The translations under genes and the position numbers were made by a program. 64,000 bases of DNA, from assembly GCA_903842345.1 (NCBI GenBank), contig CAIMLR010000030.1, positions 1 to 64,000 on the forward strand, in the 5' to 3' direction. The notes beneath the pieces were generated by a model. The model did no database searches. It was not told the DNA's origin and saw nothing but the letters and a program-made list of their open reading frames with translations. How positions within the stretch are numbered: the first letter of the stretch is position 1; every line of letters begins with the position of its first letter. The stretch is from an uncultured Myxococcales bacterium. Its GTDB lineage: Bacteria; Myxococcota_A; UBA9042. Of the stretch, positions 36,514-43,608 are shown in pieces.

Positions 36514-39500
36514 TTAGTAGCGGACGCGCCCGGTCAGGTGCCGCAGCTTCAACTGCGCCATCGCGCGGTTGATCCGCTCGCGCTCTTCATTGGCTTCAGC
36601 CAGCCGCTGGTTCGTGTCGGCTTCCGCCAGTTCCAGGCTCGTCACCGCGCCGGCCACGTACGCCTTGCCGGTGATATCCGCGCCGCGTCGGGCAATGGTC
36701 GTCTGCGCCGTCGCCAGCCGGAGCGCGTCCTCCGCCGACTCCAAATCCAGCGCCGCCTGCCGCACCTGGCTCTCCAGTTCCGAGTCGGCCTTTTCCAACT
36801 CCTGCTGCAGCCGCACCACGGACGCGCGCCGCTCCCGGGCGTCCGCATACCGCACGCCCCGGTCAAAGATCGGCAGCACCAGGTTGAGGCTCGCCTGCCA
36901 AGTCACGTACTCCGGGGCAAACGCCTTGGTGTCGCTCGCACGCGCATACGCCGAGCCCGCGAGCACGGGCAGCCACCGCAGCTCCGCCTCCCGCGTCAAC
37001 GCCTGCGCCGCCTGCACGGATTGCCGCCGCGCCAGCAGGTCCGGACGCTGCGCCCTCGCCTGCTCAATCCACTCCGGCAACGTCCCCGGAATCGGCCCCG
37101 CATCAGCCGCCGGCGCCAGACGCTCCGGCACCGCCGCGTGCGTCAGGATCGCCACGATTTGCAGCAGCTGCTTCTGCGCCTGCCGGGCGTGCAGCATGTC
37201 CTGCTCGGCGCGGTTGCGCTCCACTTGCGCCCGCAGGGACGGCAGCTCCGCCTCCGTGCCCTGCCCTTTGCGAATGTTGGCGATCGCGATGCGACGCTCC
37301 GCCAACTCCACCGCGCGGTCCGCCGCGGCGATCAGCCGGTCCAAGCCCTGGTAGTTCAGCCACACGTTGGTCAGCTGGTACGCGATCTCGCGCTTGGCCG
37401 CCTCCAGCCCGGTCCGCTGGGCCTCCAGGCCCTTGTCCATCGCGTCGGCCGCCAGGATCGGCGCCATCGCGAAGATCGTTTGGTCCAGCGTCAGCACCGC
37501 TGACACCGTATCCTGCCGCTGGATGAGCGTCGGCGGTCCCAGCATCGCCAACTGCGCCGCCGTGAGAGGCGGCAGGCCAAACACGCCGGTCAGCCCGCCC
37601 GCCATCTGGCCGATGTCAAACTTCTGCTCCGCGGAGTTGTGCGCGTACGTGCCCACCGCCTTGATGTCGGGCAGCCATGCCGTAAAGATGCGGCGGCCCT
37701 GCGCGCCGGCTTCCGTCAGCTTGGCCTGCGCCACTTGCAGATCGCCATTGCGCTCCAGCGCCTGCTGGATCGCCGTCTCCAGCTTCAAGCCCGTCGGCAC
37801 CTGCGCCTGCGTCGCCGTCACGTCCAGCTGCGGCGGCACATCGGCGTCGGCGCGCGTCGCCGGCAACAGCACCGCACCGGCGAGCAGGAGCGTCAGCAGC
37901 GTACCGCCATGGCCCTCCAGACGCGCCAGCGGCTCGGCCTGCAGCGGCTCGAGCACCGTCGTGCCCACAAAGTCCTTGCGCGCCGGCGGCGGCGCCTTCT
38001 TGCCCGTGAAGAAGCCGGCGATGCGCGTCGGCAGTTGCCGCAGGGAATCAAACCACAGGAACACCGACGGCAGCACAAGCAGCGTCAGGAACGTGGACGT
38101 TATCACGCCGCCAATCACGGCAATCGCCATCGGCGAGCGGAATTCTGAACCCGGGCCATTGTTGGTCGCCGTCGGCAGCATGCCGAGGATCATCGCCGCC
38201 GACGTCATCAGGATCGGCCGCAGCCGCTTGCGCCCCGCGTCGATCACGGCGTCGATCGCCGATAGCCCGTCGCGCTGGTTTTGCAGCGCTGCGTCCACAA
38301 GCAAAATGCCGTTCTTGGTCACCAGCCCCATCAGCAGAATCACGCCGATCATCGCGCCCATCGACACCGTGCGGTCCGTCAGGAACAGGCCGACAATCGC
38401 GCCAATCAACGCGAGCGGCAGCGCCAGCATGATGGTGAACGGGTGCAGGAAGGACTCAAACTGCGCGGCGAGGATGAGGAAGATGAAGATCACGCCGAGC
38501 AGGAGCGCGATGCCCATGGAGTCGTTGGACTCGCGCATCTGCTTCACCTGGCCGTCGAGCTTGTAGTAGCCGTCGCCGTGGAACTTGTAGGCGATGAGGT
38601 TCGGCTCCAGATCGCCCAGCACTTCGCCCAAAGATCGCGAGTTCGGCGCGGCGGTCACGCTGATTTGCCGCGTGCGATCCTGCCGTTCAATGACCTGCGG
38701 GCCGGCCTGCGGCTCCACGCGCGCCAGGAGCGACAGCGGCACAAAGCCCTTTGGCGTCGCGATCTGCACTTCCAGCAGCTTCTGGATCGCCAACCGGTCG
38801 TCATCGCGCAGCCGCACGCGGATCTTCACTTCCTTGGTGCTCTGCGCGGACACCCGCAGCTTGCCCGCCTCCTCGCCTTCCAGCGCCGCACGCAGCGTCC
38901 GGGCGATCATCGCGACGGGAATGCCCAGATCCGCGGCTTTCTCGCGGTCGATGCGGACAATCTGCTCCGGTCGGCCCGGCGAATAGCCCACCTGCACGTC
39001 TGACAAGCCCGGCACCTTGCGCGTCATCGCCTCAATCGCCGCGGCGTCGCGCTCCAGATTGGCCATGTCAGAGCCGCGCACCTGGATTTGCAGCGGCGCG
39101 CCCGACGGCAGGCCTTCGACAAACGCCGGCGGCTGAATCGAGATCTTCGCGCCCGTCCCCTCCAGGCACTTCCGCGTCCACGTCTTCAGGTCCTCCAGCG
39201 TTTCCTTGCGCTCGTTCTTCTGGTTCGCGACCACGCGCCACTGCACCTTGTTCACTTCCCCATTTGGCCCGAGTTTGGCGTAGACCGTGATGATGTTCTT
39301 GTTTTCCAGCATCTTCCGCTCGGCCGCCTCGGTCCGCCGCGCGGTTTCCGGCAAGGACGCGCCGGGTTCCAGCTCGATTTCCACCATGAACTGGCCGCGA
39401 TCCTCCGGCGCCATGAAGTCGGCGCCCATCAGGCTGACCAGACCAAACGAGCCGATCAGCACCACAAGCGCCAGCAACACCGTGATGACGCGATGGCGCA

Positions 39501-41079
39501 CGGAAAGCTTGAGCGTCAGGATGTACGCGTCCTCCATCGCCTTGTGAATGCCCTCAAAGAACCGCACGGGCAACGCGCGCTGCTTGGAGTGGTCGATCTT
39601 GACGGCCAGCTTGGAGGAGAGCATCGGGTCCAGCGTGAACGCGACAAAGAGCGAGAGAAGCACCGCGGCGGAGACCGTCATGCCGAACTGCTTGAAGAAT
39701 TGCCCCACGACGCCTGACATGAACGCGACGGGCATGAAGACCGCGACGATGGTCAGCGTCGTTGCGAAGACCGCCAACGCGATCTCGCTCGTGCCCTTGG
39801 ACGCTGCGGTGAACGGATCATCCCCCGCTTCCAGGTGTCTGAAGATATTTTCCCGGACCACCACCGCGTCGTCGATCAGGAGGCCAATCGCCAGCGACAG
39901 GGCCAGCAGCGTCATCATGTTCAGCGTGAAGCCGAGCATGCTCATGATCCAGAACGTGCCGATGACCGACGTCGGCAACGCGAGCGCGGAGATAAAGGTC
40001 GAGCGCATGTCCAGCATGAACAGCATGATGATGAGAATCGCCATCGCGCCGCCGAACACGATGGCGATCTCCACCTCGTGGGCGTTCTCGCGGATGAACG
40101 TGCTCTGGTCGATGATGAGCTTGGGCTTGTAGCCGTCGGGCAGGACGCGGTTCTTGACCAGGTCGTCCAGCTTCTTGCCGACCAAATCGGACACTTCAAT
40201 CGTGTTGGTGCCCGACTGCTTGATGATTTCAAACGCGACCGCGTCGTTGCCATTGGCGCGGATCGACGTGCGCGGCTCGACGAAGTCGTCCTTGATATCG
40301 GCGATGTCGCGCAGGTAGACCGGCGTGCCGGCCGGCGTCGTCGCCATCACGATGTCCGCCACTTCCTCCGCCGTACCCAGGTCGCCCGCCATGCGCACGC
40401 TGATTTCCTGCTTGCCCGACTCAAAGTGCCCCGCCGGCACGTTCAGGTTCTCCGCACGCAGCTTGTCGACAACGGCCGTCAGCGGCAGATTCAGCGCGTC
40501 GAGGCGACGGCGATCCAGCTCCACGCGCACTTCCCGGTCGCGACCGCCGATGACTTCCAGCGCCGCCACGCCCGCCACGCGCTCGATCTGCGGCTTGAGG
40601 ATGTCTTCCGTGATGCGCCGCAGCTGTTCCTTGGACATGCCCGCGCCCGTCGCGACGTACGTGCGGATCGGCGTCGCGCCCATGTCCACGCGGCGGATCG
40701 ACGGCTCGCGCACTTCCGTGGGCAAGTTGCTGCGGATGGCCGCCACGCGCTCGCGGACTTCCTGCGTCGCGCGGTCAATGTTGGCGGAGAGCTTGAACAG
40801 CACGACGACGGTCGACACGGACTCGCGGGAGAACGAGCGGATGGTGTCGAGATCATTGACGCTCGACACGGCATCTTCCAGCGGCTTGGTGATCTGCTGC
40901 TCGATCTCGCTCGGCGACGCGCCCGGGTAGATCGTCGTGATGGTCACGATGGGAAACGTGACGTCCGGAAACAGGTCAGTGCCGAGCGAGCGGATGCTCA
41001 TCACGCCCATGACCATGAGGGCCAGCATGAGGACGACGGTGAAGACCGGGCGCCGGATCGCGACATCAGAGAGCGTCAT
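36514..41079 (-). CDS. RND efflux pump fused to a TolC-family outer-membrane channel
   Basis: A single uninterrupted 1521-residue frame. Residues 1 to about 1030 are a complete HAE1-type RND pump: N-terminal MTLSDVAIRRPVFTVVLML, the TM4 proton-relay Asp pair in GLLIDDAVVVREN, and the TM10 Lys in VTKNGILLVD. A linker rich in Pro/Lys follows, then a signal-like hydrophobic segment (GGTLLTLLLAGAVLLPATRA, about 1058-1078). Residues 1080-1521 are a TolC/OEP protein with the two long coiled-coil hairpins (EAAKREIAYQLTNVWLNY; LESQVRQAALDLESAEDAL) and no other signal. An RND C-terminus is cytoplasmic, so the extra segment would carry the TolC part to the periplasm, possibly followed by signal-peptidase cleavage. 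Downstream of its MFP and TetR in one operon. Confidence 0.93.
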   Translation of the reverse strand: MTLSDVAIRRPVFTVVLMLALMVMGVMSIRSLGTDLFPDVTFPIVTITTIYPGASPSEIEQQITKPLEDAVSSVNDLDTIRSFSRESVSTVVVLFKLSANIDRATQEVRERVAAIRSNLPTEVREPSIRRVDMGATPIRTYVATGAGMSKEQLRRITEDILKPQIERVAGVAALEVIGGRDREVRVELDRRRLDALNLPLTAVVDKLRAENLNVPAGHFESGKQEISVRMAGDLGTAEEVADIVMATTPAGTPVYLRDIADIKDDFVEPRTSIRANGNDAVAFEIIKQSGTNTIEVSDLVGKKLDDLVKNRVLPDGYKPKLIIDQSTFIRENAHEVEIAIVFGGAMAILIIMLFMLDMRSTFISALALPTSVIGTFWIMSMLGFTLNMMTLLALSLAIGLLIDDAVVVRENIFRHLEAGDDPFTAASKGTSEIALAVFATTLTIVAVFMPVAFMSGVVGQFFKQFGMTVSAAVLLSLFVAFTLDPMLSSKLAVKIDHSKQRALPVRFFEGIHKAMEDAYILTLKLSVRHRVITVLLALVVLIGSFGLVSLMGADFMAPEDRGQFMVEIELEPGASLPETARRTEAAERKMLENKNIITVYAKLGPNGEVNKVQWRVVANQKNERKETLEDLKTWTRKCLEGTGAKISIQPPAFVEGLPSGAPLQIQVRGSDMANLERDAAAIEAMTRKVPGLSDVQVGYSPGRPEQIVRIDREKAADLGIPVAMIARTLRAALEGEEAGKLRVSAQSTKEVKIRVRLRDDDRLAIQKLLEVQIATPKGFVPLSLLARVEPQAGPQVIERQDRTRQISVTAAPNSRSLGEVLGDLEPNLIAYKFHGDGYYKLDGQVKQMRESNDSMGIALLLGVIFIFLILAAQFESFLHPFTIMLALPLALIGAIVGLFLTDRTVSMGAMIGVILLMGLVTKNGILLVDAALQNQRDGLSAIDAVIDAGRKRLRPILMTSAAMILGMLPTATNNGPGSEFRSPMAIAVIGGVITSTFLTLLVLPSVFLWFDSLRQLPTRIAGFFTGKKAPPPARKDFVGTTVLEPLQAEPLARLEGHGGTLLTLLLAGAVLLPATRADADVPPQLDVTATQAQVPTGLKLETAIQQALERNGDLQVAQAKLTEAGAQGRRIFTAWLPDIKAVGTYAHNSAEQKFDIGQMAGGLTGVFGLPPLTAAQLAMLGPPTLIQRQDTVSAVLTLDQTIFAMAPILAADAMDKGLEAQRTGLEAAKREIAYQLTNVWLNYQGLDRLIAAADRAVELAERRIAIANIRKGQGTEAELPSLRAQVERNRAEQDMLHARQAQKQLLQIVAILTHAAVPERLAPAADAGPIPGTLPEWIEQARAQRPDLLARRQSVQAAQALTREAELRWLPVLAGSAYARASDTKAFAPEYVTWQASLNLVLPIFDRGVRYADARERRASVVRLQQELEKADSELESQVRQAALDLESAEDALRLATAQTTIARRGADITGKAYVAGAVTSLELAEADTNQRLAEANEERERINRAMAQLKLRHLTGRVRY

Positions 41080-41157: not shown

Positions 41158-42318
41158 TCAGTGCGTCGGCGACGGATCCGCCGCGGCGGGCACTGCGGCC
41201 TTGGGCATCACAGTGTTGGACGGCAGCATGTCGCCTTCGCGCCACGTCGCGCCGGGATTGGCGATGACGAGGTCGGTGACCGCGAGGCCCGCCGTCACCA
41301 GCAGCTTGTCTTTTTCCGTGCGCAGGAGCGTCACCGCGCGGCGCACCAGCTTGCCGTTCTCAACGACGAGCACCGCCGCCGTGTCGCCCGTCAGGAGCGC
41401 CGTCGACGGAATCGCCACGTTGGGCTGCGCGTCGATGAGGACGGCGCCTTCCACGTACGATCCGGCGATCAGCTTGCCATCGGGATTGGGCACGGACGCT
41501 TCCATCGGCACGCGGCGCGTCATCGGATCGGCGCTGGGAATCAGCATGTCGATGGTGCCGGTCGCCTTCACGCCGGTGTCAGACTCCAGCTGCAGCGTGA
41601 TGCCGGCCTTGAGGCGCGAGGCATCGCGATCGGCGATGTTGGCGGTGAACTTGAGCGTCGTGAGCCGTTCAATGCGGAAATACGGATTGCCCGGCGCCGC
41701 GAAGAAGCCCGGCGCTGAAGGCGCACGCACGACGACGCCGCCAATGGGCGCGATGAGCTTGGTCTCCTGCTTCATCAGCTCGACAACCTTGCCCTGCGCT
41801 TCCGCCTGCGCGATCGACGCCGCGGAAAGATGCGCCTGGCCGCCCGCCATCACGACCTGTTGCTCCGTCGCCGCGCCCGCCGCCACCAGGTTCTTGGAGC
41901 GCCGCAGCGCATCCGTCGCCATCACGTCCTGCGCCTTTGCCGCCGCCATGCCCGCGCGGACCTGCTCCGCTTGCGCCTCGACGTCGCGTTGGTCGATGCG
42001 CGCCAGCACTGCGCCCGCTTCGACGGTGTCGCCCTTCTTGACAGGCACTTCCACCACGCGCCCCGGCAGCTTGAACGCCAAATCCACTTCCGCTTCCGGA
42101 CGCAGCGTCCCGCCGACGTGCAGCAGCTCCTTGAGCGGTCCCGGCTCCGGGTACACGACCTTGGGCGCCACTTTCACGTTGGAACTCGCTTCGCGGGCCC
42201 GGCCTTCCTCGGCAATGGCGGCCTTCGTCTCGATCTTGCTCTTGATCTTGATGGCAACGACGCCGAGGACGGCGAGCACGAGCACAACGAGGGAAATGAT
42301 GATCAGGCGAACTTTCAT
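41158..42318 (-). CDS. RND membrane-fusion (periplasmic adaptor) protein
   Basis: 386 residues: an N-terminal inner-membrane anchor (IIISLVVLVLAVLGVVAI), a lipoyl half (GRVVEVPVKKGDTVEAGAVLARID), a coiled-coil hairpin (AEQVRAGMAAAKAQDVMA to IAQAEAQGKVVELMKQE), the second lipoyl half (LIAPIGGVVVRA), and beta-barrel and membrane-proximal domains (IPSTALLTGDTAAVLVVENGKLVRR). It links the RND pump to the outer-membrane channel, which here are one polypeptide. It starts 22 bases before the TetR stop region on the same transcript and ends 78 bases before the pump. Confidence 0.93.
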   Translation of the reverse strand: MKVRLIIISLVVLVLAVLGVVAIKIKSKIETKAAIAEEGRAREASSNVKVAPKVVYPEPGPLKELLHVGGTLRPEAEVDLAFKLPGRVVEVPVKKGDTVEAGAVLARIDQRDVEAQAEQVRAGMAAAKAQDVMATDALRRSKNLVAAGAATEQQVVMAGGQAHLSAASIAQAEAQGKVVELMKQETKLIAPIGGVVVRAPSAPGFFAAPGNPYFRIERLTTLKFTANIADRDASRLKAGITLQLESDTGVKATGTIDMLIPSADPMTRRVPMEASVPNPDGKLIAGSYVEGAVLIDAQPNVAIPSTALLTGDTAAVLVVENGKLVRRAVTLLRTEKDKLLVTAGLAVTDLVIANPGATWREGDMLPSNTVMPKAAVPAAADPSPTH

Positions 42319-42340: not shown

Positions 42341-43051
42341 TCACGGGACGTCGGCAAGCGAAGGCGCCGGCGCGGGAGCGTCAGCAGCAGGTTGGGCGGG
42401 GTCAAAGGGAGCGGGCGAAAACGGCAGGGCGGACCGGATGATGGTCGCCACTTCCGGCGGTTGGCCCGCGGCGATCAGCGCGCGGAAGGCCATGAGGTGC
42501 TCGGCGGCGAACGGCGGACGATGCTCGCGGATGATGCGGCGCGCGTACATGAAGACGACGCCCGTGGCCATTGTCGCGGCGAATTCTGGATCCATGACGC
42601 CCGCGAGTTGCGGAAACGCCTGATTGTGCAGGCTAACCGACTCGCGCATGTGCTGGAGGATGGAGTCAATGAACTCGTCCTGCATGGACGCGTACGGCGT
42701 GCCCACCGCGCCGTCCATCAGCATCGCCAGCGGCCGGCGATGCACCCACAGGAAGTCCATGAACTGGCGGTCCGCCTCGGCGACAAGGGCAAATTCGCCG
42801 CGCCGAAAGGCCTCGCAAATCGCATCGTCCTGACCGCGCAGCAGCGCGAGGAGCTGGTCGAGGAACGCGCGGGCAATCGCCACGTACGCCGCCTCCTTGG
42901 AGGCAAAGTGCAGGTAAAACGCACCCTTGGAGGCACCCGCGCGATCGGTAATGTCGCTGACACGCGCCACAGCCAAACCGCGCGTCGCGAAGATCTCGGT
43001 CGCGGCGTCAACAAGTTGCTGCTTCAGGTGCGGATTGGCGGCGCGGGCCAT
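42341..43051 (-). CDS. TetR-family regulator of the efflux operon
   Basis: 236 residues. The helix-turn-helix is at about residues 10-55 (LVDAATEIFATRGLAVARVS, DITDRAGASKGAFYLHF), with the characteristic GAFYLHF end. The C-terminal ligand-binding domain is longer than usual and ends in an Ala/Pro-rich tail. As first gene of the TetR-MFP-pump operon, it probably represses its own promoter and is released by pump substrates. The gap upstream is packed with TGAC/GTCA palindromes. AGGGA precedes the ATG at 43051; the open frame extends 57 codons further but runs through those operators and is rejected. Confidence 0.9.
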   Translation of the reverse strand: MARAANPHLKQQLVDAATEIFATRGLAVARVSDITDRAGASKGAFYLHFASKEAAYVAIARAFLDQLLALLRGQDDAICEAFRRGEFALVAEADRQFMDFLWVHRRPLAMLMDGAVGTPYASMQDEFIDSILQHMRESVSLHNQAFPQLAGVMDPEFAATMATGVVFMYARRIIREHRPPFAAEHLMAFRALIAAGQPPEVATIIRSALPFSPAPFDPAQPAADAPAPAPSLADVP

Positions 43052-43080
43052 GTTACATTCCCTGAACTGGATGGGGCGAA

Positions 43081-43095
43081 TGACGCGGCGCGTCA
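43081..43095. promoter_or_regulatory. Perfect palindrome TGACGC-GGC-GCGTCA
   Basis: A 15-base inverted repeat with 6-base arms in the leader of the TetR-MFP-pump operon, 30 bases before the TetR ATG. The same motif, with one difference in an arm, occurs in the fadI promoter. It is likely a TetR-type operator. Confidence 0.5.
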
Positions 43096-43116
43096 CGTCA
43101 GCGAAGGTAGGGATAA

Positions 43117-43162
43117 CTGACCACGAAGTCAATGACCAGCGGGTCAGTGACTGAGTGGTCAG
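43117..43162. promoter_or_regulatory. 46-bp composite TetR operator region
   Basis: Arms 43117-43137 and 43142-43162 are inverted repeats matching at 18 of 21 positions around AGCG. Each arm itself contains a TGAC-N6-GTCA palindrome (TGACCACGAAGTCA; TGACTGAGTGGTCA), and the centre reads TGACC-AGCG-GGTCA. This suggests two adjacent TetR dimers. It lies between the TetR gene and the divergent cupin gene and may control both. Confidence 0.6.
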
Positions 43163-43206
43163 CGAAACAGCGCGCTCCATCCATTCAGAATTGCGGAGGT
43201 TTTCAG

Positions 43207-43608
43207 ATGAGCGAAGCGGCAAAAATCATCGAAAAGCTGGCATTGGCGCGTCATCCGGAAGGCGGCTGGTACCGCGAAACGTGGCGGCATGACGCGGGCG
43301 AGGGGCAGCGCGGCGCGGGCACGGCGATCCTGTATCTGCTGCAGCGCGGGGAGAAGTCCCGGTGGCATCGCGTCGACGCGGCGGAGGTGTGGCACTTCTA
43401 CGCGGGCGCGCCGCTGCGGCTGTGGCAATCCGATGATTTGCAGGCGTCGACGAGCGAAGTCCTGGGGGCCGACGTGCTGGGCGGCGAGATGCCGCAGCTG
43501 TTGGTGCCGCCGCACGTGTGGCAGGCCGCGGAATCCTTGGGCGACTGGACGCTCGTCGGCTGCACGGTGTCGCCCGCGTTCGAGTTCGCCGGCTTTGAGA
43601 CGGCGTGA
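43207..43608 (+). CDS. Cupin-domain protein (DUF985)
   Basis: 133 residues of the DUF985 cupin type: N-terminal LALARHPEGGWYRETWR, then SRWHRVDAAEVWHFYAGAPLRL carrying the metal-binding His residues, and a C-terminal AFEFAGFE. Stand-alone cupins of this group bind a metal or a small carbohydrate-like ligand; no reaction is known. It is divergent from the TetR gene and shares its operator region, so its expression may follow that of the efflux pump. Residues upstream in the open frame are not cupin-like, so the ATG at 43207 is used. Confidence 0.85.
   Translation: MSEAAKIIEKLALARHPEGGWYRETWRHDAGEGQRGAGTAILYLLQRGEKSRWHRVDAAEVWHFYAGAPLRLWQSDDLQASTSEVLGADVLGGEMPQLLVPPHVWQAAESLGDWTLVGCTVSPAFEFAGFETA

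Follow-up and report, generated by a model that had tools for sequence, protein, structure and literature searches.

The efflux locus

The 64,000-nt stretch of DNA analyzed here (the window), from an uncultured member of the Myxococcota, encodes an efflux operon on its minus strand and a cupin gene on its plus strand, the two diverging from a shared region (43052-43206) that lies between the TetR gene and the Cupin_5 gene:

36514..41079, minus strand: RND permease and TolC-type outer-membrane factor in an in-frame fusion (1521 aa; Pfam ACR_tran at 4-1010, plus OEP)
41158..42318, minus strand: RND periplasmic adaptor, MFP (TIGR01730 RND_mfp, 182.8 bits against a cut-off of 94.9)
42341..43051, minus strand: TetR/AcrR-family repressor gene (236 aa; Pfam TetR_N)
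43207..43608, plus strand: Cupin_5 (DUF985) gene (Pfam, 2.4e-48)

The regulator is assigned by its TetR_N domain (PF00440; E 2.6e-12, 46.7 bits against a cut-off of 24). Its structure model (pLDDT 86.5) matches DesT, MtrR, FadR, and EthR over residues 2-199 at Z scores of 14 to 16, DNA-bound repressors included (DesT, Z 15.6; MtrR with its operator, Z 15.0), and, as modeled, the protein has the all-helical C-terminal ligand/dimer domain of the TetR fold. Such resemblance to AcrR-type repressors places the protein in the fold and says nothing of its ligand. The fold-match lists contain no match by ligand class, and the NCBIfam equivalog cut-offs (RutR, MtrR, AcrR, BetI, FasR) are not reached, all 17 listed scores falling far below (e.g., FasR, 45.8 versus 330; MtrR, 34.6 versus 280).

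Adaptor, permease, and outer-membrane factor occur together and make this an RND tripartite efflux operon, the last two being read from one open reading frame (ACR_tran, 863 bits; OEP, 141 bits); the cut-off of the NCBIfam subfamily RND_permease_2 is missed (790 bits versus 1250). A signal-peptide-like stretch, LLTLLLAGAVLLPATRADA, lies between the permease and TolC-type parts of the fusion. The single-frame fusion is also present in all 12 relatives with a complete locus (L142-L152 and L154), and in L153 and L157 its frame is still open where the contig ends; a limited literature search found no RND-TolC fusions in print.

A 15-bp-spaced array upstream of the TetR gene

Between positions 43118 and 43161, the motif TGAC-N6-GTCA occurs three times, with starts exactly 15 bp apart:

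43148..43161, minus strand: predicted operator O1, TetR-distal; TGACCACTCAGTCA on the TetR strand, an exact TGAC-N6-GTCA whose register is the same in all five genomes of the genus
43133..43146, minus strand: predicted operator O2, middle; TGACCCGCTGGTCA on the TetR strand, an exact TGAC-N6-GTCA conserved in the genus
43118..43131, minus strand: predicted operator O3, TetR-proximal; TGACTTCGTGGTCA, an exact TGAC-N6-GTCA that overlaps the putative −35 box

The original prediction, made from the letters of the window, had described a 46-bp composite inverted repeat built of two such operators. The inverted repeat is there (43117-43162; 21-nt arms that are 86% complementary, 18/21, and separated by 4 nt) and so are the sites, but a count of two must be rejected: there are three, all in the 15-bp register, and the large inverted repeat arises because the outer two sites face each other with the middle one between them. 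Taking 10.5 bp as one turn, 15 bp corresponds to 154° and 30 bp to 309°, which puts O1 and O3 on roughly the same side of the helix and O2 on the opposite side.

Shuffling and a scan for equally spaced triples rule out a chance origin. Single TGAC-N6-GTCA sites number four in the whole window against 0.88 expected, and among 300 shuffles of the window that preserve dinucleotides, not one had two sites 10 to 40 bp apart. A scan over all 256 four-base arms with gaps of 0 to 12 picked out just this array as an equally spaced triple in the real sequence of the window; the same scan of 20 shuffles gave none. The exact two-site pattern occurs once in the 5.85-Mb genome; relaxing it to at most three mismatches adds three places, each with three mismatches (reversed control, 2), such that this relaxed search found no regulon in the window's own genome.

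Sites were chosen by the eight TGAC/GTCA positions, leaving the next inward positions unused. Across 48 orthologous sites, the next inward base is nonetheless a pyrimidine on the left in 48/48 and a purine on the right in 48/48, with the inner four bases varying, and the unit is therefore TGACY-N4-RGTCA (hereafter, the Y/R rule). The centers of its TGAC half-sites are 10 bp apart, about one helical turn, a spacing that would suit a helix-turn-helix dimer.

Predicted promoter

Two hexamers with promoter-like spacing lie on the TetR strand at fixed places relative to the array:

43127..43132, minus strand: putative −35 hexamer TTGACT, which joins the linker T to the left end of O3; offset +29 from the array start in all five genomes of the genus
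43104..43109, minus strand: putative −10 hexamer TACCTT, 17 bp from the −35 hexamer; offset +52 in all five genomes of the genus

The corresponding −10 boxes in the genus read TACCTT, TACCTT, TACTTT, TATCCT, and TACGTT, and the pair scores weakly (8 to 9 of 12 consensus bases); since a stricter scan of the window called no promoter, the promoter of the TetR operon is to be read as a prediction. Outside the genus, in 8 of 12 loci, the last base of the predicted −10 box falls between array positions −2 and 0, so that the array there covers the likely transcription start. The filter applied, which required A as the second and T as the sixth base of the −10 box, excluded L008, L009, L010, and L017, in all of which a TTGAC box is visible by eye. 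Whether it lies on the predicted −35 box, as in the window's genus, or past the −10 box, as mostly elsewhere, the array is in a position that suits repression.

Conservation among close relatives

We searched 36 genomes, including the window's own, for TetR orthologues (E below 1e-20; the next best match had 2.4e-12) and found them in 17, from which the 17 close loci derive. In 17/17, the start of the TetR gene is preceded by a 15-bp-spaced array of two to four sites, and the gene order tetR-MFP-RND is kept in 16/16 close loci examined. The original prediction had assigned the operators to the adjacent TetR and its operon and had named a lack of conservation upstream of orthologous operons as one ground for refuting this; that check did not refute the assignment, which these comparisons support. 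Within arrays, 31/31 neighboring pairs are 15 bp apart, and the one further pair in the close loci, 53 bp apart, is due to a lone extra site in L019. In the window's genus, all three sites are exact in 5/5 genomes, and their inner bases differ. Comparison thus shows the candidate sites, their register, their conservation, and their link to TetR and its operon.

Genomes lacking the orthologue mostly lack the array as well. The exact two-site pattern is found in only one of 19 such relatives, G035, where the sites are of another kind and violate the Y/R rule, and the array is absent from eight genomes of the window's own family without an orthologue (G005, G007, G009, G011, G014, G017, G018, and G019). 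The weaker loci L020-L032 (9-10, best E 2.4e-12 or worse) are array-less and were later excluded as nonorthologous; several of L033-L040 duplicate other loci (identical contigs), and each was counted once. Across the phylum (377 genomes), the exact two-site pattern occurs in 30 genomes, against one for the pattern read backwards. By eye from the table, 24 of these 30 fit the Y/R rule (the 17 with an orthologue, five of family f40, and two of f29) and six violate it (G035, G042, G221, G305, G308, and G361).

Some arrays outside the close relatives have other surroundings. In the two f29 genomes (L118 and L119), a two-site array stands where the tetR match ends or beyond it, ahead of the adaptor gene; in f40 (L113-L117), consensus-obeying arrays lie ~90 bp before a TetR-type helix-turn-helix that matches the window's TetR over residues 10-53 only. 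In L120, L121, L122, L124, and L125 (near position 1501; f39, f14, and f8), 15-bp arrays carry A after TGAC (TGACACNNGTGTCA-like) with no TetR match next to them, and these are probably the sites of a different regulator.

Arrays also occur at a distance from TetR in two family members of another genus, G010 and G020, two of those in G010 being near gene 3′ ends; an array therefore does not always mark a tetR promoter. These extra arrays, of two to four sites (L155 3210-3268, L166 1501-1529, L166 1672-1730, and L159 1501-1544), are situated close to a DUF4349-like ORF, between a glutamate dehydrogenase-like and a hydrolase-like ORF whose 3′ ends face each other, and before a MoxR-like ATPase ORF, all names being assigned from sequence by inspection rather than by domain scan. 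A dispersed motif, GCCATTTTCTACnnnnTGAAA, has 12 copies in G010 and 18 in G020 and none in eight other genomes (reversed control, none), and several of its copies lie close to the extra arrays (L155 near 3310, L166 near 1390 and 1575, and L159 near 1390).

Distant homologues

Beyond the close relatives, we examined 72 loci (L041-L112, those left of the 80 best among 299 confirmed matches), from Polyangium, Sorangium, Myxococcus, Corallococcus, and others; because all were found through TetR similarity, the sample is not random. An exact TGACY-N4-RGTCA lies within 300 bp upstream in 46 of these 72 loci from the best 80 of 299 matches, against 0 for each of six rearranged-arm motifs and 0 inside the gene. 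With one arm mismatch allowed, a site precedes the TetR gene in 71/72 loci among those best 80 of 299, a relaxed count whose chance level, about 2/72, is an estimate from equal base frequencies. Under the same relaxed search, the 72 loci drawn from the best 80 of 299 have a single site in 36 cases, two in 32, three in 3, and none in 1, and the spacings in this best-80-of-299 set are 15 bp (8), 31 to 33 bp (29), and 64 bp (1). MFP and RND genes follow next in line in 59 of the 65 distant loci with at least 2.8 kb of downstream DNA and are lacking there in 6/65 (again from the best 80 of 299 matches).

The helix-turn-helix stretch SKGAFYLHF is invariant across 31 aligned proteins. On a quickly built tree of 89 proteins (four long rows), the distribution of the 15-bp array needs four changes, at least three of them forced by strongly supported branches; the array has therefore been gained or lost more than once.

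The palindrome at 43081-43095

The original prediction also reported a perfect 15-bp palindrome, which we find as described (TGACGCGGCGCGTCA, with one central base):

43081..43095, minus strand: perfect 15-bp palindrome TGACGCGCCGCGTCA (N7), close to the inferred start of transcription

Its inclusion in the same operator set is not supported. The palindrome breaks the Y/R rule, which 48/48 array sites obey, with G after TGAC, C before GTCA, and a gap of 7 rather than 6 between its arms, and a role as fourth operator is disfavored. We treat it instead as a conserved element separate from the operators: the arms are exact in four of the five genomes of the genus and have one mismatch in G001, and the N7 pattern is found 7 times in the window's genome against 2 for the control (per genome, 6 to 7 against 1 to 4). 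It could be the site of another protein, or it may form a leader hairpin, for which the folding signal is weak. Folded as RNA, the five sequences give at least 6 pairs at −7.6 to −14.8 kcal/mol, with z scores of −1.21, −1.66, −0.82, −0.59, and −3.32, so that the hairpin clearly beats shuffles in one of five; the divergent copy in G001, a single case, retains the pair as G-U in RNA.

Interpretation of the array

Very probably, the three sites in 43118-43161 are tandem operators for an autorepressing TetR encoded directly downstream, as the sequence comparisons suggest. Each TGACY-N4-RGTCA would take a single TetR dimer, whose two recognition helices would read the TGAC half-sites, and an array would be filled by two to four dimers, with neighbors ~154° apart round the helix; at this angle and in the 15-bp register, three dimers would wrap the promoter. 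That the dimers fill the array cooperatively, as originally proposed, is our conjecture. With O3 overlapping the putative −35 box, occupancy would block RNA polymerase and turn off tetR-MFP-pump, tetR itself included, whereas a compound bound by the C-terminal domain would free the dimers from the DNA and switch on the pump. We infer TetR binding, repression, and induction at this site, as well as the promoter itself.

It may be that only one or two sites matter (e.g., O3 on the −35 box) and that the rest are duplication relics without a regulatory role. Of the 89 loci on the tree (the distant ones from the best 80 of 299 matches), 37 have a single site, four orthologues have just two sites (L010, L015, L018, and L019), and the arrays of L011, L012, and L017 include mismatched ones; moreover, most distant homologues have one site, or two at 31 to 33 bp, so three are unneeded for regulation as such. 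We nevertheless consider this reading unlikely: the 15-bp register is unbroken within close arrays, and the exactness of all three sites in 5/5 genus genomes, despite differing inner bases, points to selection on each. Another regulator could bind the array and control the operon, with the adjacent TetR acting elsewhere, and the arrays away from tetR in G010 and G020 would fit this. Such a regulator is very improbable given that the array tracks the TetR orthologue (17/17 with it versus 1/19 without), that a site with at most one mismatch stands before the TetR gene in 71/72 distant loci from the best 80 of 299, and that the helix-turn-helix recognition region is invariant. Least credible is a functional unit GTCA-N1-TGAC, with dimers seated on the two junctions and the outer half-sites left over. 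The 15-bp register itself creates GTCA-N-TGAC at both junctions, but arrays open with TGAC and close with GTCA, isolated and junction-free TGACY-N4-RGTCA sites precede the gene in many distant loci (from the best 80 of 299 matches), and half-site centers 5 bp apart would be ill suited to a helix-turn-helix dimer.

Alongside tandem TetR operators, and compatible with them, the array may double as a repressor site for the cupin, that is, as a shared bidirectional operator; we regard such co-control, a conjecture, as quite plausible while leaning slightly against it. The cupin adjoins the array in all five genomes of the genus, with 154 to 156 bp between the starts, and poor promoter-like pairs align near −45 and −21 relative to the cupin, although their hexamers score just 7 to 8 of 12. 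No cupin match lies beside TetR in 13 loci from other genera, where TetR and the array are still present; the cupin therefore cannot explain the retention of the array.

Relation to known systems and significance

Autorepression of RND pumps by TetR proteins is well known (MtrR-mtrCDE, AcrR, TtgR, and SmeT), and the system predicted here resembles those TetR/AcrR autorepressors in its TetR_N helix-turn-helix, its matching fold, the position of its gene beside adaptor and RND genes, and a putative operator at the predicted promoter. The operator arrangement is where it departs from them. For MtrR, a single consensus, 5′-MCRTRCRN4YGYAYGK-3′, is given (PMC8053128), whereas here two to four copies of TGACY-N4-RGTCA follow one another at a constant 15 bp. 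More than one dimer near one promoter, as predicted here, characterizes QacR, CprB, CgmR, and SlmA; QacR-type operators are described as having a 4-bp gap between half-sites and dimer axes 130 to 145° apart (PMC6018408), compared with N4 and a calculated 154° at our predicted sites. The QacR type as described there, however, consists of two overlapping palindromes, and the two to four sites here, being 14 bp long and 15 bp apart, do not overlap and so fall outside it. FasR of Mycobacterium tuberculosis, also of the TetR family, is reported to bind three inverted repeats at the fas-acpS promoter (PMC7382501), the same number per promoter as here, but as an activator of lipid genes. Three dimers of Escherichia coli NanR are reported on a (GGTATA)3 operator (PMC8012715); NanR belongs to the GntR family, recognizes a different repeat, and is unrelated to the window's TetR.

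Titles and opening lines of abstracts in the open-licence literature yielded no tandem, nonoverlapping, 15-bp-phased TetR array with variable copy number; six spellings of the array motif had no match in that literature, and its titles and abstract openings on myxobacterial TetR-RND operons showed no such 15-bp array. Measured against the literature searched, TetR pump autorepression and multi-dimer binding are already known, and the variable-copy 15-bp tandem array appears to be new, extending a familiar switch. More tentatively, and in our view less likely than not, the 15-bp register may define a distinct TetR-DNA assembly, in which touching dimers ~154° apart form a short, promoter-wrapping helical filament of two to four units, tuned by gain or loss of 15 bp and arisen repeatedly in myxobacterial pump repressors, with the single-site and 31- to 33-bp relatives being alternative solutions of the same family.

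For the window, a vaguely defined palindromic region is replaced by exact predicted binding sites and a candidate promoter. More broadly, TGACY-N4-RGTCA would be the operator code for a family of myxobacterial pump repressors, in which homologous repressors naturally differ in having one to four sites, spaced preferentially by 15 or by 31 to 33 bp. Such a series would allow operator number and helical phase to be tied to the sharpness and leak of a repression switch.
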